Positions 7,414 through 44,292 of a stretch of DNA of 64,000 nt are shown in pieces; positions within the stretch are counted from its first letter, which is position 1; the number at the start of each line of letters is the position of its first letter. The notes below the pieces were generated by a model. It was not told the origin of the DNA. It made no database searches and saw only the letters and a program-made list of their open reading frames with translations. The DNA lies in the NCBI GenBank assembly GCA_026004735.1, contig BPJS01000001.1:3793641-3857640 (forward strand), given 5' to 3'. The translations under genes and the position numbers were made by a program. The stretch is from Isosphaeraceae bacterium. Lineage in GTDB: Bacteria; Planctomycetota; Planctomycetia; Isosphaerales; Isosphaeraceae.

Positions 7414-8397
7414 CTAACCGCTGGGCGGGAGGAGGCGAGCAAAGGGGCGTAGGAGGTCGCCGAGGCGGAAACGCTGGGTGCGGGGCGGGCGGCTGGACCC
7501 AGGAGGCGGAGCGTGGTCCGGGAGTCGGCGGGGGTGAGGGCTTTGGAGGCGGACGGTTTCATGTGCTGAAGGGGTGGAGGCGGTGTGGGAGGCGCGGATC
7601 AGGTTGCGGATGTGGGCGAGCAGAGCGCGGTTCGGGTCGTCGATTTCGGTGGCGATTCGCTCTGACAGAGGGGTGACCGAGTCCGGCGAGGCAGAGCGTA
7701 GTTCGTGGAGGTATGAGGCGAGCAGCAGGCGTCGGGCTGGGGAGCCGGTGGCGAGGAAGTGGACCCAGGCCCAGGCCTCGCGGTAGTCGCGTGGGGTCAT
7801 GGAGCGGACGTCGTGGATGGATTCGAGGCGTGGGAGGTCGGGCCGCCAGCGGCGGATCTCGTCGGCGAGGCGCTGGAGGTGGTCAGGGTTGGTGCCAGGG
7901 GTGGGCGCGCGGTCTTCGAAGAATTCGGCGAGACCCTCGTCGATCCAGAGAGGCAGCTCGGGGATCAGGCAGTGGAGCAGGGCGTGGGTGGCTTCGTGGC
8001 GGAGGTCTTCGGTGAGGCGGTCGCCGAGGAAGGTGTAGATGACGCGGCGGTCGCCCTGGGCGAGGAAGAAGGCGCGGCGGTGGGGCAGCTCGTTGTAGTA
8101 GGTGTTAAGGAAGTGAGCGAAGGTCCGGGAGTCGTCGAGGATATAGACTTCGATGGAGCCGGGGCCAGGGTCGATGGAGGTGGCCAAGACGGATTCGATC
8201 TCGCGGCGTAGTTGGGTCAGCTCGACGACGGCTGGGGCGTTGTCGGGGAGCGGGAAGTTGGAGTGGATGACGTAAGGGCCGACCTCGACGCGGTGGGCGG
8301 TCGGGATCAGGGTATGGTCTCGGAGAGGGATGGCCGAGCAGCCGGAGAGAAGCCCGGCGATCAGGGCGGCGGCGGTGGAAGAGGGGAGACGGGGCAT
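7414..8397 (-). CDS. zincin-type metallopeptidase-like lipoprotein
   Basis: The 327-residue product starts with a lipoprotein signal (MPRLPSSTAAALIAGLLSGC), which is why the ATG at 8397 is preferred over a longer frame from 8514. A HEATH zinc motif at H134-H138 and a downstream DEGLAEFFE segment (~152) resemble planctomycete peptidase-MA/DUF1570 proteins, where a Glu after the HExxH is the third ligand. A basic, Pro-rich tail follows. It lies 32 bp downstream of the tandem kinase gene and is probably cotranscribed with the envelope-polysaccharide cluster. Enzymatic activity is inferred from the motif; the substrate is unknown. Confidence 0.8.
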   Translation of the reverse strand: MPRLPSSTAAALIAGLLSGCSAIPLRDHTLIPTAHRVEVGPYVIHSNFPLPDNAPAVVELTQLRREIESVLATSIDPGPGSIEVYILDDSRTFAHFLNTYYNELPHRRAFFLAQGDRRVIYTFLGDRLTEDLRHEATHALLHCLIPELPLWIDEGLAEFFEDRAPTPGTNPDHLQRLADEIRRWRPDLPRLESIHDVRSMTPRDYREAWAWVHFLATGSPARRLLLASYLHELRSASPDSVTPLSERIATEIDDPNRALLAHIRNLIRASHTASTPSAHETVRLQSPHPRRLPDHAPPPGSSRPPRTQRFRLGDLLRPFARLLPPSG

Positions 8398-8429: not shown

Positions 8430-10259
8430 TCAGCTCAGGATCCGGCCGCGGCGGAGGTTTTGGCGGCGTTTGGCCTGAGCGAGGCGGGCGATGCGGCGCC
8501 AAGTGGCCTTCCAAAGGCGCTGGTTGGGGTGACGGACGGGGAGGTAAGCCCGGAGGAAGCGGAGGAAGTCGGTTCGTGAGGGGTGGCAGGCTTCGGCGAG
8601 GCTGACAGCGAGGCGGGCGAGATTCTGAAGGCGGCGGCGGCGTGGCAGTGGGTGGCGGAGTTCGACGCCGACGAGGTCGATCAGGGTGAGGGCGGGCGGG
8701 TCGGCCAGCGGGTTTCCCTCGACGAGGATGTTGGCGGCCTTGAGGTCGCGGTGGGAGAGGGAGCGATCGTGGAGGAAGCGGAGGAGCTGGGCCAGGGCGC
8801 GGGTGTAGCGGCGACGCAGGGCGCGCTGGGTGGAGGCGTCAAGCGAAGGCAGGAGGTGGCGGGCGACCGTGTCGAGGCTGAGGGCTGGTTCGGCCTTGAT
8901 GGTGGCGAGGTATTCGGTGCCGGTGAGCCAGCGAAGCAGTCGGCCGCGCGCGGGGCGGTAGGGGGTGCGGATATAGACCAGGTTGGCGGGGGTGGGCACG
9001 CCGCGGCTGGCCAGGTGCTGAGCGGCCTGCCAGGCGCGCCAGGCGCGCGAGGGACGGACCAAGGCGAGCCAGGGATCGAGTCGTTTCTTGGTGGGAAACC
9101 GTTTGTAGATGACCGGAGTGGGCACCTGGTCGACGGGCAGCACAATTTGGGCGACGGTGGCCGAAGGCGAGTGTTTGAGGATCGGGGTGGACGGGAGCTG
9201 GAATGGGGCGTCGGGATTCTCCAGGAGCCGGAGGACGGCCTCGGGCGGCAGCCGGCGGGAGGCGATGGCGTCGTTTCGCTTATTGGAAAGCTCGTAGAAG
9301 TATTTGTTGGTTGATCGACAACGGCGGCCCCAGCGGGTCCAGAGCCGTTCGGCCCAAGCGCGGGTGGCGCGTTCGATGGAGCGTGCGAAGTGAGAAGGGT
9401 TGAGCCCGGCGGGTCTCAAGGCGTCGAGGTAGGCGGACAGGAAGCGGAGCCGGTCGGTGCGGGAGGAGCGGCTCCAGAAGTAATGATTGAGCAGGGCGAG
9501 GTTAGCCTGGGCGTGGCGGCGGGTGAGGCGGCGGCGGTGGCGAAGGGCGTCGGTGTCGATCATGGCCAGGCGGATCTGGTCGTTGTGATCGAGGCGGACC
9601 AGAAGGTTGCCGGGGTGGAAGTCCTGGTGGAGGAACCCGGCGGCGTGGAGGCGAGCGGTGAGGCGGCCGACCTCGCGGGCCAGGGCATGGCGGAGGCGGG
9701 AGCGGCGGGGTTCGGGGAGGTTGGGCAGGAGTTGTTCGACGACGAGGTCGAGGGGCGTGGTGCCGGGAATCTCGGGGCTGACCAGGTAGTTTTCGAAGAG
9801 GAAGCCGAAACGGCGTTGTTCGCCGAGGGCGATGGGGGTGATGGTGGTGATGCCGAGCCGGGCGAGTTGGAGGGCACGACGGGCTTCGTTGCGGCCTTTG
9901 CCGCGGCGAAACCATTGGCGGAGGATCTCGCGCCAGGTGGGGACCTTGTAGTGTTTGACGTAAGCGGCTGAGCCGGGCAACTGGATGCGGTAGACGGCGC
10001 GGTTGGGGCCGTTTTTGATGGTCTGGAGACAGCCGGCGGCCTTCCATTCGTCGAGGCGGAGGCCGCACGGGCCGAGGAGTCGGTCGCGCCAGGCGGGCAG
10101 GATCCACCAGCCGATCGTTCCAAACCGGGCGTAGACCCAACCGGGCTGACGGAAGAGCGGGGTTGGGATGGAGTCGGGGACGGGGCGAGGGTGGGCGCGA
10201 GGGGAGTGTCCGAAGGGATCCGGGCGCACGGAGGCAGGGGGTAGGCTCAGGCGGGTCAT
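8430..10259 (-). CDS. tandem lipopolysaccharide-kinase-like (WaaP/InaA) protein
   Basis: This 609-residue protein contains two consecutive small-kinase domains of the WaaP/InaA/Kdo-kinase type. The first has HQDFHPGN (~211) with a later IDTD segment; the second has HRDLKAAN (~503) with LIDLVGVE. Upstream lysines such as AYVKHYK and VIYKRF are the probable nucleotide-binding lysines of each copy. No membrane helices are seen. The ATG at 10259 overlaps the stop of the upstream glycosyltransferase (ATGA), so translation is coupled; the longer frame to 10592 would run through that gene. Context with a GT4-type transferase and a divergent lipid-flippase-like ABC protein suggests phosphorylation of an envelope glycolipid. 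Two full kinase domains in one chain is unusual for the family as I know it. Confidence 0.88.
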   Translation of the reverse strand: MTRLSLPPASVRPDPFGHSPRAHPRPVPDSIPTPLFRQPGWVYARFGTIGWWILPAWRDRLLGPCGLRLDEWKAAGCLQTIKNGPNRAVYRIQLPGSAAYVKHYKVPTWREILRQWFRRGKGRNEARRALQLARLGITTITPIALGEQRRFGFLFENYLVSPEIPGTTPLDLVVEQLLPNLPEPRRSRLRHALAREVGRLTARLHAAGFLHQDFHPGNLLVRLDHNDQIRLAMIDTDALRHRRRLTRRHAQANLALLNHYFWSRSSRTDRLRFLSAYLDALRPAGLNPSHFARSIERATRAWAERLWTRWGRRCRSTNKYFYELSNKRNDAIASRRLPPEAVLRLLENPDAPFQLPSTPILKHSPSATVAQIVLPVDQVPTPVIYKRFPTKKRLDPWLALVRPSRAWRAWQAAQHLASRGVPTPANLVYIRTPYRPARGRLLRWLTGTEYLATIKAEPALSLDTVARHLLPSLDASTQRALRRRYTRALAQLLRFLHDRSLSHRDLKAANILVEGNPLADPPALTLIDLVGVELRHPLPRRRRLQNLARLAVSLAEACHPSRTDFLRFLRAYLPVRHPNQRLWKATWRRIARLAQAKRRQNLRRGRILS

Positions 10260-11320
10260 GGGCGGTCCCCCGCAGGGATAGGACCCGGCGTCGAGGCGGC
10301 AATGGCGTGGGGTCTTAGTGGGAGGGGCCTGGAAGCGGTCAGGGCATCGAGGAAGGTCGATTCCCAGGCGCGGAGGTCGTAGTGGCGTTCGACGAAGCGG
10401 CGGGCGTTCAGGCCGAGGCGCTGGCGGGCGTCGGGGTGGGCGGTCAGTTCGACGAGGAGGTTGATCCAGTCGTCGTCGGAGTGGGCGAGGAAGCCGTTCT
10501 GGCCATGAGTGATCAGGGAGGTTTGGACGCCGACGGAGTTGGCGACGACGGGCAGTCCGGCGGCCATGTATTGAAGAAGTTTGAGGCCGCATTTGCCGCG
10601 GCTCCAGAGGTCGTCGGGGAGCCAGGAGATACCGACGTCGGCGGAGGCGACTGCGGCGGCCTCGATGGCTTCGGACCAGGGGATCGGCTCGACCGGGAGG
10701 GGGTCGAAGCGGCAGAAGCGATCGCAGACCAGTCGGAGGCGGACACCGGGGACTTCGCGGCCGATGCGGCGCCAGAGCGGAGCGCTCGTCTCCAGGCCTT
10801 GGAGGGTGCTGGAAGAGCCGATCCAGACGAGGGTCAACGGGGTGGAGCTGGGGGCTGATTTGGGGTGGTAGCGATGGCAGTCGATGCAGGTGGGAATGAG
10901 GGTCAGGCGCGGGGCAGGCAGACCGTGATCGACGGCGAGCTGGCCGAGGAAGGGGTTGCCGGCCAGGACGGCATCGACTGAGCGCATCAGGGCGGCGAAG
11001 CGGCGCCGGCGTCGTGGGCAGTGGGGGCCGCGGGGGTCGAAGGAATCACGGTAGAGAATGGCGTCGTCGAAGTCGAAGACGAGTCGCCGAGCGGCGCGGC
11101 GGAGGAGGGCCAGTTGCCAGCGTGGCAGCAGTTTGCGTTGCAGGAGGACGATGTCGTAACGAGCGGCGTCGCGGAGTTGGGCGATTCGGCGGACTGGATT
11201 GGTTGAGAGGGACTGAATCTGGAGCGAGAGGCCGCGACGGATCAGGGCAGGACGGAAGGCGAGCACGCGGTAACGTGCGCAGACGTGGTGGGGCGACTCG
11301 ACCAGGGCCAGGACGTTCAT
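10256..11320 (-). CDS. GT4-type glycosyltransferase
   Basis: This 354-residue protein has the two-Rossmann GT-B layout. The N-terminal half contains LVFDFDDAIL and a membrane-proximal basic loop. The C-terminal half carries the sugar-nucleotide-binding region GKCGLKLLQYMAAGLPVVAN, typical of group 1 transferases, followed by NGFLA. A ribosome site GGAGG precedes the ATG. Its last codon overlaps the start of the tandem kinase. It probably adds a sugar to lipopolysaccharide core or another envelope glycan; donor and acceptor cannot be read from the sequence. Confidence 0.92.
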   Translation of the reverse strand: MNVLALVESPHHVCARYRVLAFRPALIRRGLSLQIQSLSTNPVRRIAQLRDAARYDIVLLQRKLLPRWQLALLRRAARRLVFDFDDAILYRDSFDPRGPHCPRRRRRFAALMRSVDAVLAGNPFLGQLAVDHGLPAPRLTLIPTCIDCHRYHPKSAPSSTPLTLVWIGSSSTLQGLETSAPLWRRIGREVPGVRLRLVCDRFCRFDPLPVEPIPWSEAIEAAAVASADVGISWLPDDLWSRGKCGLKLLQYMAAGLPVVANSVGVQTSLITHGQNGFLAHSDDDWINLLVELTAHPDARQRLGLNARRFVERHYDLRAWESTFLDALTASRPLPLRPHAIAASTPGPIPAGDRP

Positions 11321-11568: not shown

Positions 11569-13818
11569 ATGAAGAACTTCATCCGCCTCGTCCGATTCGC
11601 TTGGCCCTACCGTCTGCGATTTGGGCTATCGCTGGGCTGCGCGCTGATGGTTGCGGTGCTGTGGTTTTTGAACATCAGCGCGGTCTATCCGCTGCTTCAG
11701 ATCTTGTTTTATCACCAGAACTGCCAGCGGTGGATTGGCGAGCAGATCGCGGAGTCGGAAACGACGATCGCGTCGCTCGAAGCGCGGATCGGTGAAGTGC
11801 GGGCCGTGCAGGAGGTTTCGGCGTTGCCGCGTGCGGAGGCCGTGGCCACGTTGCGGGAGCGGTATCGGGAGAAGCAGGCGGGAGCGGATGCCCGGCTGGC
11901 GGCGTTGCGGGAGGCGCAGCGTCGGCTTCAAGAAGAGAATCCGGCGCCGGTCGCCGGATTTGAGCGGGCGGTTCCCAATGCGGCGCTGGGGCCGCTGCGG
12001 CAGGCGCACGCCGTGGCGATGGCGGCGGTCGATGAACTGGATAGCGCGATGAACCGGTATCGCCGAGGGGAGATTGAGTCGTTACGGCAACGGGAGGAGT
12101 CGTTGCGTCGGGAGCTGGGCAAGGCGCGGAAGAACGACAGCCGGTTGCGGTGGCTGGAGCCGTTCATCCTGAGGTTTCTGCCGAGCGATGGATTTCGGAC
12201 GCTGGTCCTGCTGCTGGCGGTGGTGCTGGCAGGGGTGGCGCTGAAGGGGGTGTTTCAGTTTGCCCAGGATGTGTTGGTGGCCGATGTGACCCAACTGAGC
12301 TTGTTCGACATTCGCAACCTGTTTTTCCGGCGGACGATGGCGCTGGACCTGGCGAGTTTCTCGGAGCAGGGATCGGCCGAGTTGATGGCGCGGTTTACCA
12401 ACGATATTGATTCGGTCTCGCAGGGGTATAACACGCTGCTGAGCAAGATGGTGCGCGAGCCGTTGCGGATCATCACGTGCCTGGGCGGGGCGTTGTGGCT
12501 GAACTGGCGGTTGACGTGTCTGACGCTCGTGATTGTGCCGATCTCGGCGCTGACGACGGTCCACGTGGGCAAGATTCTCAAGCGGGCGGTGCGACGGTCG
12601 CTGGAGAGCATGTCCACGATTTACAAGATTCTGCAGGAGTGTTTTCAGGGGATACGGGTCGTCAAGGCCTACACGACAGAGCGGCAGGAGCGGCGGCGGT
12701 TTTTCCGCGAGACCAAGACGCTGTATCGGAAGAGCCTGCGGGTGGCCAAGATCGACGCGATCAGCGATCCGGTGCTCGAGCTGTTGTCGCTGATGACGGT
12801 GGCGATAGCGTTGCTGGCTGGGTCGTATTTGGTTCTGTACCAAACGACGACGCTCAATCTGGGGTTTGTGAAGCTGCCGCTGGCGTCGCAGCCGATGATG
12901 ATCGAAGACTTGTTGACGCTGTACACGATGCTGGCCGGGATGTCGGACCCGATTCGCAAGCTGTCGAACGTGCATTCCAAGATTCAGCGGGCGGCGGCGG
13001 CCTCGGATCGGATTTGCGCGATGATGGACCGGCGACCGGTGGTGGTGGACAAGCCGCGGGCGACGACGCTGCCACGGCATCGGCGGTCGATCGAGTTTGA
13101 CGATGTTCACTTTGGCTATTCGGGTCGGGAGCCGGTGTTGCGGGGGGTGAACCTGTCGGTCGCGCATGGGGAACGGGTGGCGGTCGTGGGGCCAAATGGC
13201 TGCGGGAAGTCGACGTTGTTGAACTTGCTGGTCCGGTTCTGGGATGTGGATGCGGGGGCAGTGCGGATCGACGGCTACGACGTGCGCGAGGTGCGGTTGA
13301 GGAGTTTGCGGGCACAGGTCGGGTATGTGACGCAGGAGACGATTCTGTTTGAAGGGACGGTGCTGGAGAACATCCGGTACGGCTCTCCCCACGCGACGCG
13401 CGCGCAGGTGGAGGAGGCGGCGCGGCGGGCCTATGCCCACGCCTTCATCGAGAAGTTGCCACAGGGGTACGACACGCTGTTGAGCGAGCGGGGGATGTCG
13501 CTTTCGGGCGGTCAGAGGCAGCGGCTGGCGCTGGCTCGAGCGTTTTTGCGCGATCCGGCGATCCTTCTGCTGGATGAAGCGACCAGTGCGATTGACATTC
13601 AGGACGAGGCCCTGATTCGACGCGCGATCGAGCAGTACGCCCGGGGCCGGACGACGATCCTGGTGACGCATAGTCTGGCGACGCTTCAGCATGTCGACCG
13701 GATCGTCTTGATGAACGGCGGGCGAGTCGAGGCAATCGGGACCGACGCCGAATTGCGGCGAACCTCCGCCTTGTATCGACGGCTCTATGAGGCGTACAGC
13801 CACCGCGAGAGTGCCTGA
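11569..13818 (+). CDS. MsbA-like ABC exporter (fused permease and ATPase) with coiled-coil insert
   Basis: This 749-residue half-transporter has an N-terminal membrane domain and a C-terminal ATPase with Walker A GPNGCGKST (~541), signature LSGGQRQ (~645), Walker B ILLLDEAT (~664) and a switch His in VTHS. The closest family by layout is MsbA-type lipid/drug exporters. A charged, Glu/Arg-rich helical segment of roughly 130-140 residues (about 55-190) is inserted between the first helix (RFGLSLGCALMVAVLWF) and the next (TLVLLLAVVLAGVALKG, ~210); normal exporters have a short extracytoplasmic loop there. It is divergent from the glycosyltransferase/kinase operon, consistent with glycolipid export (inference). 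The ribosome site is weak. At 749 residues it is longer than the ~580 usual for MsbA, the excess being this insert. Confidence 0.94.
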   Translation: MKNFIRLVRFAWPYRLRFGLSLGCALMVAVLWFLNISAVYPLLQILFYHQNCQRWIGEQIAESETTIASLEARIGEVRAVQEVSALPRAEAVATLRERYREKQAGADARLAALREAQRRLQEENPAPVAGFERAVPNAALGPLRQAHAVAMAAVDELDSAMNRYRRGEIESLRQREESLRRELGKARKNDSRLRWLEPFILRFLPSDGFRTLVLLLAVVLAGVALKGVFQFAQDVLVADVTQLSLFDIRNLFFRRTMALDLASFSEQGSAELMARFTNDIDSVSQGYNTLLSKMVREPLRIITCLGGALWLNWRLTCLTLVIVPISALTTVHVGKILKRAVRRSLESMSTIYKILQECFQGIRVVKAYTTERQERRRFFRETKTLYRKSLRVAKIDAISDPVLELLSLMTVAIALLAGSYLVLYQTTTLNLGFVKLPLASQPMMIEDLLTLYTMLAGMSDPIRKLSNVHSKIQRAAAASDRICAMMDRRPVVVDKPRATTLPRHRRSIEFDDVHFGYSGREPVLRGVNLSVAHGERVAVVGPNGCGKSTLLNLLVRFWDVDAGAVRIDGYDVREVRLRSLRAQVGYVTQETILFEGTVLENIRYGSPHATRAQVEEAARRAYAHAFIEKLPQGYDTLLSERGMSLSGGQRQRLALARAFLRDPAILLLDEATSAIDIQDEALIRRAIEQYARGRTTILVTHSLATLQHVDRIVLMNGGRVEAIGTDAELRRTSALYRRLYEAYSHRESA

Positions 13819-17603: not shown

Positions 17604-20600
17604 TTAGGCGGGCCAGACGAGCAGGGTCAGGGCCGTCAAGGTTGCGATGACCGCCGCCGAGCGAGCCAATCTCCCGGTCCGGCTTGCCGCGAGGGCGATG
17701 GCGACGAGCAGGCTGGCGAAACTGGATCGGGGGGCGTCCCAGGTTGGTTGAGGGCGGGTTGCCGACCGGGCCGCCAGAATCAGGCGTGGCGGTTCGGCTG
17801 CGCTAATTCCTCGGAACCAACTCGGGGTGCCGAAGAGCGGAAGGCGGGGTGGGAGGGCGTCTGACTCTGAGGGTGTCTGGGCGGTCCCCGGGGGAGGCAG
17901 ACTCAAGCCGGCATCCCGGAGGGCTGACTGAAGACGCGCGCGGGCCGCGTCGGCCAAGGCGAGGCGGGTGGTGGTGGGGACGGGAGTCGAGGCGGCGGCA
18001 GCGTCGGCAAGCTCGCCGCGGAGGTGGTCCAGTTGCTCGATCGCCGCGGCGAGGTCTGCCAGGGCATCCGGGTCGGAACGGTCGAGAGTGGGCAGACGTG
18101 CCTCCAGGGTGCGAGCTTCTAGCTCAATCGTCTCGACGAGGAGGGTTGCCCGCTCGGCAGGGGCGAGGCCGTCGGCTTCGGTCGGAACGGTGCGTGAGGC
18201 GATCGGGTCGCGCAGCTCGACGTGGAGCGGGACGCCGGGCTGGTCGGGGACGGGCAGCTCGATGCCGATTGATCCGGGGGTCGCCGGAGTGACCCAGTAG
18301 ACGGCGACGACGCGGGTCGAGCCGGGTGGCACGAGCAGCCTGCCAGAGCGGGTGCGGTAGCAGGGGAGGAACCGGAGGCCGTCATGTGCGCCGAGGATCT
18401 GGGCCGAGGCGGGAAAGCGGAAGTTCAGGGAGTGGCCGGGTGGGGAGGCGAGGTGGCAGAGCAAGCGACCGGCAATGCGGCCGTCAAGGCCCGCCTGAAG
18501 CTGGATCAGGGCGTGGGTGATGTGGGGGACGTCCGGCTCAGGATCTGGGCGGCCGGGGCGGAGCCGAAGCGACCAATCCGAGCGCAGGATGCGGTAGACG
18601 CGACGGGTTGGGCGTTCCTCGAGGTTCAGTTCGGAAGAGGGGAATCGGGCGCGTTCGACTTCGCGGACTCCGGCCGAGCCTTCGGCGGCATACCGCCGGC
18701 CGGAGGCGTCGAACCAGGCCAGATACGATTCGACGCGGCCGAGGCCGAGGGGAACCAGGTTGGGAAATTCGACGGGTCCGGGCTGGGTTGGGGTGACGGA
18801 GCGGACGATGACGCGGGGTTCGTCCCAGGTGGGTGTTTCGAAGCGGACTTCGAGGCGGGTGGTGTCGCCCATGGGGAGACGGCGAATCTCGCTGGGGGAA
18901 GGCTCGACCTGGACGTCGAGTTGGGCCGCGAAGGCGGCGGGTAGGTCGAGGCGGAGCTCGCGATAAGGACCGCCGCGGACGCGGTAGCGGGCCGAGGCGC
19001 GCCATTCGATGGAATCGGGCTGAAACTCGAGGTGGCTGAGGACGCGGACATCGGCGGCGGGGCCCTCGAGCCGGTAGCGGAGGTGGGCATCGGCGGCGTT
19101 TGGCTCGACCCGAAAGGCGGCCCGGACCGGAACTGGACCGGACGAACCGCTAGCCGGGATCGAGCGGGACCAGCCGGAGGGTTCCTCTAGGTCGAGGGCC
19201 ACTTCGGGGGCGGCGGCCAGCCTCAATTCGGTCGGCTCGACGATTTCCGCCTGCCAGCGGGGGATCGACAGGACCAGCTCGCGCGACAGCCCCTCGAGCG
19301 GAGCTGCAGGCCCGTCGGAGTCGAGCCAGCCGAGGATCGCAAGGCGCTGAGGCGGCCCGCGCTGGCTGTCCCAGTGAAGGACAAGTTGATGGGAGTCGCC
19401 GGAAAGGTGCCAGCTCAGAACGCCCTCGCCGCTCACGTCGATGAGCCGGAGCCTGTGCGGTAATTGGACGGAGAGCGCGGGGAGCGAGGGGTCCGCGGCG
19501 ACGATCTCGACCTCAGCCTGGACGCGGACCCTCTGGCCGTCGATGGTGCAATCCAGACGCGGCCGCAGGTGCGTGGGGGAAACGGAGGTGCGGACCAGGA
19601 GGCTCAAGGGGTTTGAGTCGCGGGCATCCCAGGCGGCCGTGGGCCGCTGGTCTGCGGGGATCGGTTCACCCCAGGCCGCCAGAAACTCACTGATCGGTAG
19701 CCGAGCGTCGCCACCGATCAAAGGATCAGACGGCTGGAGCGACCAGCCGGCGCGGGGTCGAACAGCCACGGCGTGGGTGCGGATTTCGGCGTCGCCGGAG
19801 ATGACCGGCGGCGGCAGCGAGCGCGGGGATCGCAGGCCCTGAGCGGCCGGGCGCCAGGCCAGGAGTCGGGTCTCTTCGCCCGGGGCCAGCGCGGGCATCA
19901 ACGCGATGGACCAGCGGTCCGGGTTCGAAGGGGGGGAATCCGGGTGGACGCGGTCGCGCCGACCCTCGATCGGGATGGGGAGGATGCGCGCGTCGCGGGT
20001 TGGCAATTGGAGCGATAAGGTGTCCAGAGGCTCGGTTCCGGCGTTCTGGAGGCGGAGTTCGAGCAGATCGCCGAGGGGGCCGGCCTCCCAGAGGGTCTGG
20101 AGATCAAGAACCGGGCGCGAAGCCGGCGGATCGGTGGCGAGGTCGAGATCGAGGCGGTCGACGGGTCCGATCGGCTGGGGAGCGGGACCGACTGAGTCGA
20201 CAGTTGATTCGCGGATCGCGAGCGCAACGGGGACGATCCGCGGGTGTACCGAGGTTTGGGCCAAGCCGGTTGCCTCGACCCGGAGTTCGTGCGAGCCTGG
20301 CCCACGGATGCGGACCCGACCGACGCCGAGGTCAGGGTCGAGCGTGATCGGGGCCTCCTGGTCGTCGACCCAGACGGTCACGCCCAGCCAGCCATCGAGG
20401 GGGATTGGCCACAGGCTGCCCTCGGGATCGGCGCCGACAACTTGGTATGTGGATCGAAGGAGAAGCTGGTCGTCGGACTGTTGGAGGGAGTGGCGCGCCT
20501 CGCGAGCACCGAAGCCGTCGGACCGCTCGCGCTGCTGACGGGCGCGTTGTTGCTCGGTCTCGCGGACGAGCCGCTCGAGCCGTTCCAGATCGGCGAGCCG

Positions 20601-23600
20601 GACGACAGCTCGGGCCGGAGGGGCGGCAGCGTCCTCGGCGGTGTCGAAGGGCAGAAGAATCAGGATCGGCTCGGGCGCGGATTCGTCCGGCACGCGCTGA
20701 CCGGCCGTTGCCGAGGCGACCAGAGCGTGGAAGGCGTAAGCGAGCAGCAGTGTACTGGCGCCGCGGAGGGTTGCCGTCGAGGCGGCGGCGTTCGGAGGCA
20801 GGTTGACTGGCTCGACCGGCCGGAGCCAGCGTGCGGCCGCGATCACAACCCCGGCAACGACCGATGGGGCGATCCAGGGAGCGAGCTGCGGGAGTACCAG
20901 AATGAGGCCGGCCAGCAGGGCATAGCCGAGCACCAGCAAGCGGGACGCCAGAGTGGGCTGGCGACGGCTCGGCCAACCTAGCGCAAGCACGAGGGCGGCC
21001 ACGAACCATGCCTCGGTTCTCCAGCCCGTCTGCGTGCGTGACTCGAGGCGGACCTGGGCGCCATCGGGGATGAGGTGCGGCGGGAGCACGCGATCGGACG
21101 CTGGCGGTGGCGGGTTGGTCCGCCAACGCCAGAGGGTCAAAAAGCGATGGGAGGGATCCTGACCGTCGCGGGCGGCTTCGAGGATGCGGGCCGGCCGGTC
21201 GAGCCGGGCGGCGGCGCTTGGTGTGGTCAAGAGCAGCGCTGCTTCGAGGGGAACGACGGTTAGCCCCAGTGCCTCCAAGGCCCGGGAGACCGAGGCGTCG
21301 GAGTTCTGAGGAAACGGCGATTCAGGGCGAGCGGCGGCGGTGGCCAGGGCCTCCGAGTCGATGATCCAGGTGATGCCGCGGCGGGCCTGGCTCTCGAGCC
21401 AGGCGATCAAGGTGGAGCCGGGAGCCGGCAGCTCCAGGTCGGCTTGGAACGTGCTGCTCGGGCGGATCGTACGGCCGGGGGCTGGAGTGGACGATCGGGC
21501 GAGCGCGGCCCCAGGGCTGACCGCGATGCGGTCGCTGGCGCGGACGATGGTGTTCAGGACGGGCAGACTCAGGCGGGGAAACCGCGGCGCAGCGGGATCG
21601 AGGCCGGGGGGTTCCTGGTAGACCAGCTCGAGGCGGTGAGCGGATCGCCCCGGCCCGATTCCGCGGGGAATGGCCAGCCAGCCGTCGGACGTGGTGGGGT
21701 CGAAGGCAACGGCGTCGAGCCAGGCGGCGACTGGCCGTGCCCCGTCGGGCAGGCGTGCTTTGAGGTCCGGATAGGACGGACACGTGAACTCGGCGACGAG
21801 GCGGCAGGTTCGGCCGGATTCGGTGGGCGGCCCAGGAGTCCATTCGGCTAGGGCGATCAGTCCTGGGGTTGAGAGTTGCTCGCGTTGCGTGATCCGCAAA
21901 CGGGGTTCGGGGCCGCGGCCCGAGACGCGGTAGGCGATGCGGTTGGAGCGGAGCGAGCGGGGGTCGAGGTCGAGGGCGGGGATGGTTTGGTGGGCCGAGT
22001 CGAATTCAAGCCGAGGGTCGAGGCGGCTCAGGCCGACGCCGCTCAGTTCGAAGCCGAATTGTTCGCTGGCGGCGACTAAGAGGCGTTGGTCGGGGTGCTG
22101 GTCGCCGTTGAGGGCGAAGGTTGGCAGGGGGCCGCCGTCAGGACCAAGCTGAGAGTGGGCGTGGAGCAGGATTCGGCCGGACTCCCAGCGTCGGGCAGGG
22201 AGTTTGAGGGTCTGGGCCAGGCGTGGAGCCGAGCCGGGTTCGGCGGGGGGAACGGTGTGAACGGCCAGGACGGGCAGGGGCTGGTCCACGCCTTCACGAA
22301 CCAAGGCCCAGGACCAGGCGACGTCGGCGGAGTGCTCGATGACGAGGCGATCCAGCTCCGACGGAGGCAGATCAATGGAGAGGTAGGCGTCGAGGTCGAA
22401 GGAGTCGCCGGCTGGGCAGACAAGCAGGCGGCTGATCGCCGTGGGGCGGAGCCGTGTGGGGGTCAAGTCGAAGTCGAGCCTGGCGTGACGGTCGCGCCAC
22501 CGCCAGGCGAAGCGGGGAGTGTCGTCGAAGCCATCGGTTCGGGTTCGCAGGGGGTCGAGCCATTCGACGCTCTGAGCTGAGAGCGGGCGGATGCTGATTC
22601 GGTCGTCGGCGATCAGGCTCCAGAGTTCGTCGCTGGTATAGCCGGGGCGCGGCTGGGGGCGTGGAACGGCCAGGCGCGATGTCGAGATCAAGGAACGGAA
22701 GGCCCGAAAGCGAACGATCACGGGGGTGGCGGGATCGCGGGCTTGGGGGGGGATGACGGTGGCGACGTGGCCGACGTCCGGCTCAAAGGCGGAGGACCAG
22801 AGGGTGGGTTCGTCGAGACTGACGATCTGGACTGAGTCCCAGGTCCACTCGGTCGGCAGGGCAATGGAGAGGGTCGGCGGTCGGGGACCGGGAAAGTTCC
22901 AGGTGGCTTCGGCGTCGAGGTATGCCCGATCGGACTCGAGCCGCAAGGCGGCGCGGAGGTCGACCCGGGGCGACAGGTCTGGCTCGCCCAGCTCGAGTTC
23001 GGCTGGTGGCCCATCGGCGGTGGCGTCGAAGGCCAGCCAGGAGCCGCCTCGGGCCAGCGAGTCGGGCGGGACCGGGACGCGTTCGGCGGCAATCCGGCGG
23101 GTGTTGAGCACAATCCACTCAGGCCCAAGGTGAACCAGGGTGCGCTCGCCGAGGAGCAGCGAGCCGGGCAGTCGGACCCGCGGGATTTTCCAGCGGCCGC
23201 TGGTCGGGGGGCGGACGCGGCCCTCGAGATGCAGCGTTTGTCGGGGCGCAGCGCCTTCGGCCAGCCGGATGAGCACCTGGGTTTCGGGACCGGTACCGGG
23301 CAGCACCTCAAAGCCATCGACGCCCGGACCCAGGATCGTGGTGGCCTCGAGGGGAGACTCCCAGACGGTGATGAGCGAGCGGGGCGGCGGGGTCGGCAAG
23401 CGGAGGTCCCACTCGGCCTCGAAGCGAGGGCCGTCGGCGGTGATCTCGAACTGGTGGCGGGCGGACAGCCAGGGCGGGTCGGGCGGCGGCGCGATTCCGT
23501 CCCGGCGGCGGATCGTCGCCACGATCCGGCCAGAGGCGCCGTCGATTCGAAGGAGGGTTCGACCGGGCTCGGCCAAGAGGTGGCGGATCCGGTTCGGCGT

Positions 23601-24179
23601 GGAAGTGTCGAAGTCGAGACGGTCGGGCAGGTCGATCGTCAACGCCGAGAGCGCGCAGTCGGGGAGTTCGAGGCTGAGATCGGCCGAGTCGGCATCGAGC
23701 CTGACGGGCAACTGCCAGGGGATGACGATCGTGGAGACGCCGGGCTGGGTGATCCAGGCGATCAGGCGGCCATCGGGGCGGGTGCGGAGGTCGGGCAAGC
23801 CAGCGCTGGGGGTGATCGGGAGGTTCCAGGGGACTAGCGGGACGGCGGCGGGAGGATCTGGACCGATTTCGACGGTCAGGGTGCTGCGGCCCTCGAGGAC
23901 GTCGCCATCCATCCAGCGTGCCTGGTGCTCGGCCCGGATCAGACGAGGCGGATGAGGCATGGGGTCGTTGAGGCTGCGACGGACGGTGTCGAGATAGCGT
24001 TCCAGGTCGGCCAGGTTCAGGCTGCGGACGGGAGTATCGGCACCGAAGAGGCGAACGATTTCCTGGGAAGGGATGCGAAGGCGGCGAATGGGGGGCAACT
24101 CGCCGGGGTGGGAGGCGGGGTTGACGGCAGCGAACCAGGCCGCGGTCAGGGCCAGGCGGAGAAGCGCCGGGCGGCTCAT
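17604..24179 (-). CDS. giant secreted/membrane protein, probably a fusion of two ~1.1-kaa units
   Basis: I do not recognise a named family. The 2191-residue product has a signal peptide (ALLRLALTAAWFAAV, residues 5-19), a short helix with LADLERYLDTV (~57), a long beta-rich region, hydrophobic helices at about 1056-1146, then a second LADLERLERLV helix (~1192), another long beta-rich region and terminal hydrophobic helices (VIATLTALTLLVWPA). Corresponding segments recur in register in both halves and in the upstream 1099-residue protein, for example SIALPTEWTWDSVQIVS (~438) and SVQLPHRLRLIDVSG (~1569). Its length is almost exactly twice that of the upstream protein. ATG 24179 overlaps the upstream stop (ATGA), so the pair is translationally coupled; a frame to 24503 is excluded for this reason. 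It is probably an envelope protein with large extracytoplasmic domains; catalytic motifs are not evident. Confidence 0.88.
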   Translation of the reverse strand: MSRPALLRLALTAAWFAAVNPASHPGELPPIRRLRIPSQEIVRLFGADTPVRSLNLADLERYLDTVRRSLNDPMPHPPRLIRAEHQARWMDGDVLEGRSTLTVEIGPDPPAAVPLVPWNLPITPSAGLPDLRTRPDGRLIAWITQPGVSTIVIPWQLPVRLDADSADLSLELPDCALSALTIDLPDRLDFDTSTPNRIRHLLAEPGRTLLRIDGASGRIVATIRRRDGIAPPPDPPWLSARHQFEITADGPRFEAEWDLRLPTPPPRSLITVWESPLEATTILGPGVDGFEVLPGTGPETQVLIRLAEGAAPRQTLHLEGRVRPPTSGRWKIPRVRLPGSLLLGERTLVHLGPEWIVLNTRRIAAERVPVPPDSLARGGSWLAFDATADGPPAELELGEPDLSPRVDLRAALRLESDRAYLDAEATWNFPGPRPPTLSIALPTEWTWDSVQIVSLDEPTLWSSAFEPDVGHVATVIPPQARDPATPVIVRFRAFRSLISTSRLAVPRPQPRPGYTSDELWSLIADDRISIRPLSAQSVEWLDPLRTRTDGFDDTPRFAWRWRDRHARLDFDLTPTRLRPTAISRLLVCPAGDSFDLDAYLSIDLPPSELDRLVIEHSADVAWSWALVREGVDQPLPVLAVHTVPPAEPGSAPRLAQTLKLPARRWESGRILLHAHSQLGPDGGPLPTFALNGDQHPDQRLLVAASEQFGFELSGVGLSRLDPRLEFDSAHQTIPALDLDPRSLRSNRIAYRVSGRGPEPRLRITQREQLSTPGLIALAEWTPGPPTESGRTCRLVAEFTCPSYPDLKARLPDGARPVAAWLDAVAFDPTTSDGWLAIPRGIGPGRSAHRLELVYQEPPGLDPAAPRFPRLSLPVLNTIVRASDRIAVSPGAALARSSTPAPGRTIRPSSTFQADLELPAPGSTLIAWLESQARRGITWIIDSEALATAAARPESPFPQNSDASVSRALEALGLTVVPLEAALLLTTPSAAARLDRPARILEAARDGQDPSHRFLTLWRWRTNPPPPASDRVLPPHLIPDGAQVRLESRTQTGWRTEAWFVAALVLALGWPSRRQPTLASRLLVLGYALLAGLILVLPQLAPWIAPSVVAGVVIAAARWLRPVEPVNLPPNAAASTATLRGASTLLLAYAFHALVASATAGQRVPDESAPEPILILLPFDTAEDAAAPPARAVVRLADLERLERLVRETEQQRARQQRERSDGFGAREARHSLQQSDDQLLLRSTYQVVGADPEGSLWPIPLDGWLGVTVWVDDQEAPITLDPDLGVGRVRIRGPGSHELRVEATGLAQTSVHPRIVPVALAIRESTVDSVGPAPQPIGPVDRLDLDLATDPPASRPVLDLQTLWEAGPLGDLLELRLQNAGTEPLDTLSLQLPTRDARILPIPIEGRRDRVHPDSPPSNPDRWSIALMPALAPGEETRLLAWRPAAQGLRSPRSLPPPVISGDAEIRTHAVAVRPRAGWSLQPSDPLIGGDARLPISEFLAAWGEPIPADQRPTAAWDARDSNPLSLLVRTSVSPTHLRPRLDCTIDGQRVRVQAEVEIVAADPSLPALSVQLPHRLRLIDVSGEGVLSWHLSGDSHQLVLHWDSQRGPPQRLAILGWLDSDGPAAPLEGLSRELVLSIPRWQAEIVEPTELRLAAAPEVALDLEEPSGWSRSIPASGSSGPVPVRAAFRVEPNAADAHLRYRLEGPAADVRVLSHLEFQPDSIEWRASARYRVRGGPYRELRLDLPAAFAAQLDVQVEPSPSEIRRLPMGDTTRLEVRFETPTWDEPRVIVRSVTPTQPGPVEFPNLVPLGLGRVESYLAWFDASGRRYAAEGSAGVREVERARFPSSELNLEERPTRRVYRILRSDWSLRLRPGRPDPEPDVPHITHALIQLQAGLDGRIAGRLLCHLASPPGHSLNFRFPASAQILGAHDGLRFLPCYRTRSGRLLVPPGSTRVVAVYWVTPATPGSIGIELPVPDQPGVPLHVELRDPIASRTVPTEADGLAPAERATLLVETIELEARTLEARLPTLDRSDPDALADLAAAIEQLDHLRGELADAAAASTPVPTTTRLALADAARARLQSALRDAGLSLPPPGTAQTPSESDALPPRLPLFGTPSWFRGISAAEPPRLILAARSATRPQPTWDAPRSSFASLLVAIALAASRTGRLARSAAVIATLTALTLLVWPA

Positions 24180-27100
24180 GATGCGTAGTCCCCGGGATCG
24201 TCGGGACGGACCGCCGAACCGCGGGATGCGGTGGACGGGGCGCGGCGACGCACGATCGTCGAATCCTCGGGGCCGTGGACAACTTCGACGGGGCGTGCTC
24301 CGTCGAGATGGCTGGGTCGCAGGCTTGAAGCTGGCCCGGATGTTTGCAACTTGCGCCGCCAGAGGGTTGCGACGAGGATTCCCAGGCCGACGCCGGCGAG
24401 GCCCGATTGGAGCACCTGTCCGACCAGGATTCCGAAGCGCGAGGTGGCCAGGACCCCGGCCGCGAGCCAGAAGGCGGCAATCATTCCGGGCCAGCGTTGC
24501 CATCCGGCGAGGGTCAGCAGGGTGACGGCCAGGGCCGCCAGACTGCTGCTGGCCAGCAGATAGGGGCGGGAGACGATCCAGAGGCTCACCTGGTTGGGGT
24601 TCCCCGAGCGGCCGAAGAGGTAGTTATGGGTGGACGCGGGAGAGGAGCGGGGCGCGTCGGAGAGCAACCCGAGGGCGGACCGCTGGGGCTGACGGCGCCA
24701 GAAGTAGCCGCTCCAGGCCCATTCATTCAGGTCGTCCCAGCCGGTCGGTGCTCCGAGCAGGGCGTAGCTGTGCGGGAGGCGCACTTCCCAGAGCAGGGCG
24801 CCGACGGCCGCCTGGTCCGAAAAGCGAGGACCCCACCAGCGTCCCCGTTCGGAAGCTCGAGGGATCACGTAGCTGAGTTCGACCAGAGACTCGCCCTGGT
24901 TGGGCGGCAGGCGTAGGCGGAATGTCCCGGGCGGCTCAAGGGCCTCGATCTCCTCGATGGATTGGGCGCCGACCCGCGCGCCGATCCACTCGGAGCCGTT
25001 TGGCAGTTCGACGACGAGCTGACCCTCGTGGCGCGCGACCTGAACGCGACACTCGACGCTGACCGAGGCATCGGGCATCCAGGTGGTCGCAACGACAGCC
25101 CGGCGAATGAACAGCGGCGGCAGAGTTGCGCGACGCGGCAGGCGGAGCCGGGCGTGCAGACGGGGGGGATCCTGGTGATCGCGGCGGGTCCAAGCCGAGC
25201 TGGGGTCGCCCGGGTCGGAGGGCAGCCAGGCGTCTCCCTCGGGTTCTAGCTCAAGGCCGGCCTCGGCTGAGAGGGAGACGACGCGGCTGGCGGCGGGAAT
25301 GCCGACTAGCCCGAATTCGGGGATTTCGATTCGGCGCTGGGAGCCGGGCGCGATGGGTTCTGCGAAGGCGACTCGACCGCGCAGGCGAAGGCTGCTGCGG
25401 ACGTCGATCGGTCGAGCCAGCTCCAGGAGGACGCGCTGAGGAGATTCGGGGGCCGCGGACAGAAAGCGCCGGCGTCGGACGTCGACGCCCAGGAGCTGCC
25501 AGTCAGGCTCGATACCGGCGGGGAGCTGAAGTTCGAGGGAATCCAACTGGCCGTGTTCGAGGAGAAGCTCGATCTCCTGGCGGAGGTCGATCCCGAGGCG
25601 GTCCAGGGTTAGTTCGACTCGATGGCGGGTCGCGACCTGGCGTTGCAGGGATTCGACCTCAAGGACCAGGCGCTGATCGGCGTTCTGCCAGGGGATCCAG
25701 GCGATGCGCGGGGATCGCAGGTCGGGCCGCTCGGCAGGCCAGGTCCAGGCTGAGGGGGCAGGGCCGAACGACCGCGGCGATCCGTCCGGATGGAGGGCCT
25801 GGAGGGCAATGTCGCGTGTATCGACCAGTGCAAGCAGGCCGGACGTCCCGTCGACGTCGCGGGGAGCAGGCAGCGCGACGGCCACGGGGGCCCCCGGAGT
25901 GATCGGGAGGGAGCCGATCAGCCGAATCGAGAATTGGCCAGAGGCGGAGGCCGAGTCGGCAAGCCTGAGAACGAGCTGCCGCGAGGAGTCGGAGGTCGGC
26001 GAGCGAGCCGTCGCGGCGCTCGAAGCGATCGACTCGGGGGGACCGACGTCGAGAATCTGGAAGTCGTTGGGAACGTCGAAGGCGACCCGTGCCAGCCGGC
26101 CACGGGGGCCGCGAAAGTCGAACCAGGACTCAATGCGCAGACTTTGTCCGTCGTCGGACCAGAGGGTTGAGCGGGTGCGGCAGGAGAGCCAGGGTCGAGA
26201 GGGATCGGTGCGCAGTTCGAGCTGAAACGGTTGAGTGAGCAGCCGGTAGGCGAGGATGACCGACGGTCGGGCGCGGAGGGTTGGGGAGAGTTCGGTACGG
26301 GGGTCGATCGGGCGGAGGCCCGGTCCGGTGCGTCCGGTGACGACCAGATCGTCGCTGGCGGAGATGGCCAGCAGCCCGGTTTGCACGGGGGTATCGACGA
26401 TCGGGATTCCGCGGAAGAGCCAGGTGGCCGACTCGTCGCGGGGGAGCGGCCGGCGGGCGCGGATGGTTAGCTCCAGGGTTTTCTGCGCGTTCAGGGGTCG
26501 CGGGATCCAGACACGGCCGGCGACGGTGGGATCGGCCCTGAGCCGTCGGGGGTCGAACGGCTGGGCGTCGATGAGGTATTCGACGTCCTCGAAGCTCGGG
26601 TCGAGATCGAGACCGAGTTCGCTGGCCGACCCTCGCTCGGCGCGCAGGGTGGCGGTTGACTGGATGCGTGCCGAGCCGGACTCGATGGTGATGGCCAGTT
26701 CGACCTGGGCCGAGAGGACCGGCCGGGGAGGTTCGGCCTCGCTGGTCTGGGTCGACCAATCCAGTTCCAGGCGAGGCCGCGGGGGGATCAGGCCGGCGAT
26801 GGTGGCCTGACCGGCCTGGTCGCGGAGGATCGTGAGCGATTCGCCCGTGCGGAGAGCAGCCTGGAGCAGGCCGGGAGGAGCGGTCAGTTCGAGACGGGTC
26901 ATCGGAGCCTCGGCCAGGGGTAGGTCGAGGCGCCGTTGCTGGCCGAGGACCCGGACCGGGACCGACAGGCGGACGCGGAGCACCTGCCGACCGGAGCCCT
27001 GAAGTTCGGCCGTCCAGCCGGAACCGGGGACAACCGAGACGGGAATCGGCTGGCCGTCGCGCGTGACTTCGGAGAGAACCAGGCCGTCGAGCCGCAAGGG

Positions 27101-27475
27101 GGCGAGAACGGCCTGATCGCCTTCGACGAGGAACTCGAAGCGGAGGTCGAGATCGGCCTGGTCGTCGCCGAGCCGCCCGGAAACGAGCACGGAGCGGAGT
27201 GAAGCGGTGGGAGTCTGGGGAGCCGACTGGCTGGCCGAGCGGTCAAGCAGGGCCTGGTAACGGGAGCCGTCGAGGAGGACGAAGTCGGGGTTGGCGAAGC
27301 GGGAGAGCAGGGCGTTGAGGTCGGCGGGCATGCCGAGAATGACAAAGAGCGGGTCGGACGAGGGAGCGGGCGACGCGGCCGGCTGGCTCACCGTGGGCCG
27401 CTCGGTCTGTTGCGCCCCGACCGGGATGACGGTCAACGCGAACAAGGACATTGCCGCGAGGATGGGCCGGCACAA
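24176..27475 (-). CDS. large secreted/membrane protein, paralogue of each half of the downstream giant
   Basis: I do not recognise a named family. This 1099-residue protein has a signal peptide (ILAAMSLFALTVIPVGA, 5-21), a short helical start (ADLNALLSRF and SRYQALLDR, 51-79), a beta-rich ectodomain of nearly 900 residues, and three hydrophobic helices near the C-terminus (LAALAVTLLTLAG, MIAAFWLAAGVLA, GLAGVGLGILVATLW) followed by a basic, disordered ~60-residue tail. The segment AFDVPNDFQILDVGPPES (~462) matches equivalent positions in both halves of the downstream giant. The start codon is TTG without a clear ribosome site; ATG 27451 is possible but would leave a signal peptide without positive charge. 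It is the first gene of a two-gene operon, with a palindrome 120 nt upstream. Confidence 0.88.
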   Translation of the reverse strand: MCRPILAAMSLFALTVIPVGAQQTERPTVSQPAASPAPSSDPLFVILGMPADLNALLSRFANPDFVLLDGSRYQALLDRSASQSAPQTPTASLRSVLVSGRLGDDQADLDLRFEFLVEGDQAVLAPLRLDGLVLSEVTRDGQPIPVSVVPGSGWTAELQGSGRQVLRVRLSVPVRVLGQQRRLDLPLAEAPMTRLELTAPPGLLQAALRTGESLTILRDQAGQATIAGLIPPRPRLELDWSTQTSEAEPPRPVLSAQVELAITIESGSARIQSTATLRAERGSASELGLDLDPSFEDVEYLIDAQPFDPRRLRADPTVAGRVWIPRPLNAQKTLELTIRARRPLPRDESATWLFRGIPIVDTPVQTGLLAISASDDLVVTGRTGPGLRPIDPRTELSPTLRARPSVILAYRLLTQPFQLELRTDPSRPWLSCRTRSTLWSDDGQSLRIESWFDFRGPRGRLARVAFDVPNDFQILDVGPPESIASSAATARSPTSDSSRQLVLRLADSASASGQFSIRLIGSLPITPGAPVAVALPAPRDVDGTSGLLALVDTRDIALQALHPDGSPRSFGPAPSAWTWPAERPDLRSPRIAWIPWQNADQRLVLEVESLQRQVATRHRVELTLDRLGIDLRQEIELLLEHGQLDSLELQLPAGIEPDWQLLGVDVRRRRFLSAAPESPQRVLLELARPIDVRSSLRLRGRVAFAEPIAPGSQRRIEIPEFGLVGIPAASRVVSLSAEAGLELEPEGDAWLPSDPGDPSSAWTRRDHQDPPRLHARLRLPRRATLPPLFIRRAVVATTWMPDASVSVECRVQVARHEGQLVVELPNGSEWIGARVGAQSIEEIEALEPPGTFRLRLPPNQGESLVELSYVIPRASERGRWWGPRFSDQAAVGALLWEVRLPHSYALLGAPTGWDDLNEWAWSGYFWRRQPQRSALGLLSDAPRSSPASTHNYLFGRSGNPNQVSLWIVSRPYLLASSSLAALAVTLLTLAGWQRWPGMIAAFWLAAGVLATSRFGILVGQVLQSGLAGVGLGILVATLWRRKLQTSGPASSLRPSHLDGARPVEVVHGPEDSTIVRRRAPSTASRGSAVRPDDPGDYAS

Positions 27476-43919: not shown

Positions 43920-44292
43920 GCCGGGGACAACAGGCTGGTGCGGAGGGTTCAGTACGGCTGCGGGCGGCGCCGACTACCGGCAACCGCCTAATGAGCGGGC
44001 GCTGGCAGATTGGGCTGAGTTTGGGTCTGCGACGTGACCCGGCGTAGAGAGTCCCGGCGAACCGGCTGCTGGGCGGGGGTGTCCGGAGGGGGGGAGCTTG
44101 TGGGCCCGTGCGAATGCGGACGAGGCAGGGCTTGGTCTTGAGGCCGCTCGGTTGGGCGGCGGGGTCAACAATCGGCGTTCTGGGACGAACCGCCTGAAGG
44201 GAAATGGTTGTTCTCTTGAGGGTCGCCGGACGGCTACGCTCGGGATGGGGTGCGTGTGGGCCTGAGGGGTGTTCGTCAGGGAGTCGGCGACG
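43920..44292. other. 373-bp intergenic region, nothing recognised
   Basis: This lies between glgB and the second kinase, both on the plus strand. No gene, hairpin terminator with T tract or convincing promoter is seen. Confidence 0.45.

Follow-up and report, generated by a model that had tools for sequence, protein, structure and literature searches.

A planctomycete tandem kinase of the WaaP family with a canonical first domain and an atypical second domain

Gene neighborhood of the tandem kinase

We analyzed a 64,000-nucleotide stretch (the window) of the genome of an Isosphaeraceae bacterium (contig BPJS01000001.1 of assembly GCA_026004735.1), which is a single contig of 4.82 Mb. An open reading frame (ORF) on the minus strand, spanning 8430-10592, encodes a protein with two kinase domains, and the ATG at 10259 was chosen as its start (Table 1). 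This ATG overlaps the stop codon of the upstream glycosyltransferase gene in the sequence ATGA, and the next downstream gene begins 32 bases past the kinase stop. The order and overlap of this GT4-kinase pair match those of waaG and waaP in Escherichia coli, where WaaG is also a GT4 enzyme.

Table 1. Positions in the window of the tandem kinase gene, its adjacent genes and the key residues of the two kinase domains
Feature	Position	Strand	Remarks
DUF1570 lipoprotein-like gene with HExxH, next downstream	7414..8397	-	PF07607, 24.8 bits (cut-off 22)
Tandem kinase gene	8430..10259	-	609 aa; stop codon 8430-8432
GT4-family glycosyltransferase gene	10256..11320	-	PF13692/PF00534; overlaps kinase start by 4 bases
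MsbA-like ABC exporter gene, divergent	11569..13818	+	TIGR02203, 419 bits, below cut-off of 602
Kinase domain 1, residues 46-308, canonical WaaP-like	9336..10124	-	PF06293, 66.4 bits
Domain 1 beta-3 Lys, K102	9954..9956	-	Lys in 131/131 tandems
Domain 1 helix-C Glu, E125	9885..9887	-	Glu in 131/131; aligns with E. coli WaaP Glu
Domain 1 catalytic loop HQDFHPGN, residues 211-218	9606..9629	-	D213 column Asp 115/131, Glu 16/131
Domain 1 metal-binding Asp, D235	9555..9557	-	Asp in 131/131
Kinase domain 2, residues 323-598, atypical	8466..9293	-	PF06293, 47.1 bits
Domain 2 beta-3 Lys, K386	9102..9104	-	Lys in 130/131
Domain 2 helix-C position, A409 (Glu in WaaP)	9033..9035	-	Acidic in 5/131 tandems
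Domain 2 catalytic loop HRDLKAAN, residues 503-510	8730..8753	-	D505 130/131, N510 131/131
Domain 2 DFG-equivalent DLV, residues 528-530	8670..8678	-	D528 129/131

Homologues of the neighbors were counted in 34 loci of the class, the window excluded and some of the loci ending at contig edges: the GT4 gene was found in 31/34, the DUF1570 gene in 28/34 and the MsbA-like ABC exporter gene in 10/34. Given its presence in 28/34 loci with the tandem, the DUF1570 protein may serve the same envelope step. It carries a lipobox-like LLSGC and the sequence HEATH, with a further Glu ~18 residues on, a pattern that we take to be metallopeptidase-like. In the exporter, ~190 residues precede the Pfam membrane domain and include a charged, coiled-looking stretch. 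Elsewhere in the window, two minus-strand ORFs of 2299 aa (17604-24503) and 1099 aa (24176-27475) gave no Pfam match at 1e-5 and are putative genes, and one plus-strand ORF (44269-46710) combines a Ser/Thr protein kinase domain with a DUF1349 domain.

At 20 loci outside the family (19 of them also outside the class), the neighbors fell into clusters of GT4 (15 loci), heptosyltransferase (10), GT2 (8) and GT2 (7), formed by single linkage and named from one scanned member each. Among 27 loci examined with a flank of 1.5 kb (L100-L126), 11 contained a second ORF matching the domain-1 profile. No heptosyltransferase gene adjoining the tandem was seen in the window. Searches of the genome gave three heptosyltransferase-family matches and one each for WaaA and LpxC, and a single-domain WaaP-like kinase (L001) with the WaaP-type His is encoded elsewhere in it. 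The first-pass annotation of the window had linked the protein to an envelope glycolipid, and this link is supported by the glycosyltransferases, heptosyltransferases and kinase ORFs of the neighborhood together with the LpxC, WaaA and heptosyltransferase matches in the genome. The association of the tandem with the heptosyltransferase family GT9 was weak at the curated cut-off: in 59 genomes, GT9 was present in 46/47 with the tandem and 9/12 without it (Fisher p 0.024, uncorrected for descent). When two matches with E-values between 2e-4 and 4e-4 were treated as absent, the latter figure became 7/12 (p 0.0008, likewise uncorrected). The only tandem genome without GT9, G010, is 81% complete.

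Distribution of the tandem architecture

The tandem query matched 50 of the 59 genomes comprising that of the window and its relatives. Single-ORF tandems were found in 34/37 genomes of the family and in 11/22 others of the class; the remaining family genomes carried the gene in two pieces (two genomes) or as a fragment (one genome). In a draw of 392 genomes across Planctomycetota, 302 matched at 1e-6, single-domain matches included, and at least 88 contained a single-ORF tandem, a lower bound made up of 85 genomes that were read, the window genome, G012 and G058. All 86 places read across both domains in the 85 genomes were one ORF each. The fetched places were those whose match ran from model position 80 or less to 518 or more, with other wide matches (e.g., in G090, G098 and G252) and shorter ones left out.

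The alignment of 131 tandems used below combines the 45 of the class-level set with the 86 of the phylum draw and excludes G021 (a fragment with two stops) as well as G029 and G030, where the gene is split in two. L136, one more tandem whose domain-1 Asp is replaced by Glu, lies outside all counts. A genome-contig scan, limited to close relatives, returned 20 loci, of which 11, in planctomycete records, were long or full matches and the other 9, in Clostridia-type records, short partial ones. The named records with long matches belonged to Planctomycetota, several of them to Isosphaeraceae or Singulisphaera. Among the loci is a homologue (L043) in Singulisphaera acidiphila DSM 18658, a cultivated bacterium of soil or bogs. 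In a literature search that covered mostly openly readable papers, we found no description of a tandem PF06293 protein or of PF06293 kinases from Planctomycetes.

Two kinase domains in a single polypeptide

The protein contains only two matches to HxDxxxxN, which are the HQDFHPGN and HRDLKAAN motifs seen by the first-pass annotation at ~211 and ~503. Their origin by chance was rejected (two or more matches in 0.01% of 20,000 composition-preserving shuffles). The lysine and metal-binding aspartate proposed for each half could be assigned as K102 and D235 in the first and K386 and D528 in the second. PF06293 (Kdo/WaaP) was the best Pfam match of each half, and residues 1-330 (66.4 bits) and 331-609 (47.1 bits) each cleared the cut-off of 21.3 bits separately. 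In searches against PDB sequences, WaaP (6dfl) came first for the full-length protein (E 1.8e-11, residues 85-279) as well as for the second half alone (E 3.4e-7). The two halves could also be aligned to each other, with 34% identity over 130 aa (E 6e-9).

The AlphaFold model, calculated from a 35-row alignment, showed two kinase folds with a pLDDT of 87.7 and a pTM of 0.81. Domain 1 (residues 49-308) matched WaaP 6dfl with Z 19.4 and rmsd 3.9 over 235 aligned residues, and domain 2 (residues 323-598) was structurally most similar to PRPK 6wqx, with Z 20.7 and rmsd 3.7 over 228 aligned residues. Residues 1-32 were modeled with low confidence, and residue 51 is the first column conserved in at least 90% of 45 relatives. 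Profile, structure model, phylogeny and conservation agree on two WaaP/InaA-family kinase domains in a single polypeptide, as had been proposed from the first inspection.

Both domains were close to E. coli WaaP in profile comparisons (E 1.1e-13 for the first domains and 1.8e-12 for the second), and all scanned domains matched PF06293 at E<=0.001 (29/29 first, 28/28 second). At the same threshold, PF00069 matched 21/28 second domains. A relationship of domain 2 to WaaY was considered and rejected, as the alignment (E 4.4e-5) was weaker than that to WaaP.

Conservation of catalytic residues in the two domains

Domain 1 has the full residue set of a canonical active kinase, namely the Lys, the helix-C Glu, the Asp of HxD, the Asn/His and the metal-binding Asp. 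K102, E125, D213, N218 and D235 were each kept in 45/45 sequences of the class set, and N218 in 131/131 tandems. Domain 2 has the Lys, the HxD Asp, the Asn and the metal-binding Asp of this set and lacks the helix-C Glu. The first-pass annotation had described two active-looking domains; this stands as far as the Lys/Asp/Asn/Asp set is concerned, which both domains possess, but not for the helix-C Glu, which the first half has (E125) and the second lacks (A409), a difference that the annotation had not mentioned.

The helix-C position of domain 2, assigned by an ungapped match to the Glu-bearing segment of E. coli WaaP, is Ala in 81, Ser in 32, Gly in 10, Glu in 4, Asp in 1 and Thr, Gln or Met in 1 each of the 131 tandems, so that 126/131 have no acid there. 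The single exception in the Lys column is L224, in which a Lys sits beside the column. Ranked by conservation over the 131 sequences, the top four of the 246 domain-2 columns are N510, D505, K386 and D528, a pattern expected from catalysis rather than from scaffolding. In a study of Pseudomonas aeruginosa WaaP (PMC6147952), the E78A mutation of the helix-C Glu increased EDTA sensitivity 128-fold and strongly impaired function, and the K51A, H161A, D163A and D188N variants did not support growth. By these results, loss of the Glu is costly, yet not equivalent to loss of the other residues.

A possible substitute for the missing glutamate

In kinases without a helix-C Glu, such as POMK and the DYD kinases, the Lys or its replacement can pair with an acidic residue in the third DFG position (PMC12599244). 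The corresponding position of domain 2, residue 530, was acidic in 81/86 tandems of the phylum draw, in 3/11 of the rest of the class set and in 0/34 of the window's family, where Val occupies it in 31/34, including V530 of the window protein. The window's domain 2 consequently lacks the POMK-like compensation. In the N-lobe of the second domain, no substitute acid conserved in all members was found among the 34 sequences of this family. Two candidates within the family only are position 371, which is Glu/Asp in 28/34 but Gln in the window protein, and position 395, which is Asp/Glu in 33/34. With the DFG acid missing as well, no acidic partner of K386 shared by every family member was found, and the absence of both the helix-C and the DFG acid makes the window's family the extreme case among the tandems.

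Reciprocal loss of catalytic residues

In 16 tandems (L117, L124, L125, L173-L177, L179, L181, L183, L184, L186-L188 and L195), Glu replaces the catalytic Asp of domain 1, with the loop reading HGELHAEN in 15 and HGELHTEN in 1. All 16 keep the Lys, Asp, Asn and metal-binding Asp of domain 2 as well as an Asp at 530. This Asp-to-Glu change need not inactivate domain 1. The converse was observed in L069, in which domain 1 is intact and the catalytic and metal-binding Asp of domain 2 are lost; its Lys fell on different residues in two alignments and is thus of unsure state. Loss in either domain with the other intact would suggest two separable activities. The genome that encodes L069, G058, also encodes a lone second-domain-like kinase (L074) elsewhere. 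In L149 and L150, domain 1 is present and no domain-2 catalytic loop was found downstream; by eye, the stretch after domain 1 resembles the helix-C region of domain 2.

Origin of the fusion

A tree was built from 19 single kinases together with the first and second domains of tandems, 35 of each. Every second domain and four of the single kinases fell into one clade with support of 100/99, apart from the first domains, which were not resolved as a single group. The fusion is therefore old and joined two different branches, and the second-domain clade rules out a recent tandem duplication. Five proteins matched domain 2 without domain 1 (L074, L132, L133, L134 and L135), although L135 may be a tandem truncated by the end of its contig, L132 and L133 closely resemble each other, and L133 was not on the tree. 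The helix-C Glu was absent and the Lys/Asp/Asn/Asp set was kept in 5/5, and their DFG position reads DLD or DLE.

Discussion

We lean, without great confidence, toward a reading in which the tandem protein phosphorylates sugars of the LPS core at two catalytic sites, the second of them atypical. The protein would be cytoplasmic, with domain 1 acting as a canonical WaaP/Kdo-family kinase. Domain 2 belongs to a distinct and old branch of this family, in which the helix-C Glu was lost and the Lys, Asp, Asn and metal-binding Asp were kept; it would still transfer phosphate, and in most lineages the acidic third DFG residue probably pairs with the Lys in a POMK-like manner. Both sites would most likely target two hydroxyls of one growing core oligosaccharide; the co-translated glycosyltransferase would act before the kinase sites, and export would follow. 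Phosphorylation of two positions by the tandem kinase is a plausible hypothesis. Several observations count against the two-site reading as a whole: the helix-C acid missing from domain 2, the DFG acid missing in the window's family, the lack of a heptosyltransferase gene beside the tandem in the window, the weak GT9 association at the curated cut-off, and the separate WaaP-like kinase L001, owing to which at least one core phosphate would be possible without the tandem protein.

In the main rival explanation, domain 2 would be a pseudokinase whose binding of ATP or LPS serves to hold or activate domain 1, in the way that the pseudokinase Fam20A activates Fam20C. The absence of the helix-C acid from 126/131 second domains would fit such a role, as would the finding that the members of the window's family have no substitute acid common to all of them. 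Fam20A, with Gln for the essential Glu of Fam20C, is an allosteric activator (PMC5413348), and Foldseek lists the pseudokinase-kinase tandem of TYK2, at a low TM of 0.22. However, the catalytic base D505 is kept in 130/131 and is among the top four columns, which would be needless for a pure scaffold. Furthermore, copies of domain 2 exist without domain 1, and it is in domain 1, not domain 2, that the catalytic Asp is changed in 16 tandems. These sequence features argue against domain 2 being dead in phosphotransfer, and we consider the pseudokinase explanation possible but rather unlikely.

It is improbable that both domains are kinases acting on a protein or on a glycan other than LPS instead of on the LPS core. 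Both halves have PF06293 as their best Pfam match, every scanned domain matched it, and the neighbors are glycosyltransferase, heptosyltransferase and further kinase genes; these observations outweigh, in our judgment, the PF00069 matches of 21/28 second domains, the HRDLKxxN loop of domain 2, which is of the Ser/Thr kinase type, and the structural similarity of domain 2 to PRPK, its closest match. A recent tandem duplication or an annotation artifact with a decaying second copy is highly improbable, even though domain 2 has decayed in L069, L149 and L150: the separate grouping of 35/35 second domains from the 35 first domains (100/99) and the single ORF in 34/37 family genomes and at 86/86 places of the phylum speak against it.

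The tandem protein shares with the WaaP/RfaP heptose(I) kinase (PF06293; 6dfl) the fold, the PF06293 match, the Lys/Glu/HxD/metal-Asp set (in domain 1) and the overlap with an upstream glycosyltransferase gene, as in E. coli waaG-waaP. WaaP has one domain rather than two, however, and has the helix-C Glu that is missing in domain 2. The scores against the NCBIfam RfaP equivalog (112.6 bits for the whole protein, 67.1 and 51.7 for the halves) were below its cut-off of 170 bits. The Kdo kinase KdkA, a single-domain protein, belongs to the same Pfam family, but domain 2 scored only 34.7 bits against NF002475, far under the cut-off of 142. WaaY, the heptose(II) kinase, is the second core kinase of E. 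coli, and domain 2 aligns better with WaaP. Both tandem domains have Asn where WaaP has His (H168; PMC6147952). The waaP-wapP-wapQ-PA5006 operon of P. aeruginosa likewise encodes several LPS kinases of one core pathway together, although waaP, wapP and wapQ are separate genes. A clone of residues 300-493 of PA5006 is mentioned in PMC8707732, so PA5006 would be long enough for two domains.

Other resemblances concern domain 2. POMK and the bacterial DYD kinases lack the helix-C Glu and have an acidic third DFG residue (PMC12599244); in the tandems, this DFG position is acidic in 84/131 second domains. In the kinases described there, however, the beta-3 Lys is replaced too, whereas domain 2 of the tandems keeps it and that of the window has DLV. 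Fam20A-Fam20C resembles the tandem in pairing a kinase with a Glu-less partner (PMC5413348), but the two are separate eukaryotic secretory-pathway proteins.

A broader proposal, which we put forward only tentatively, is that Planctomycetota share a bifunctional LPS-core kinase as old as the phylum, with a second site that represents a distinct Glu-less class of sugar kinases. This site would be held by DL[DE] in most lineages; with neither acid in the window's family, it may use an unusual ATP geometry or carry out other ATP-dependent chemistry there. The envelopes of planctomycetes are less studied than those of proteobacteria. If the proposal is true, a two-site core kinase across the phylum would imply that the LPS core of planctomycetes is phosphorylated and probably contains heptose, and the second domains would provide a natural test of kinase function without the Lys-Glu pair, the usual mark of an active enzyme.
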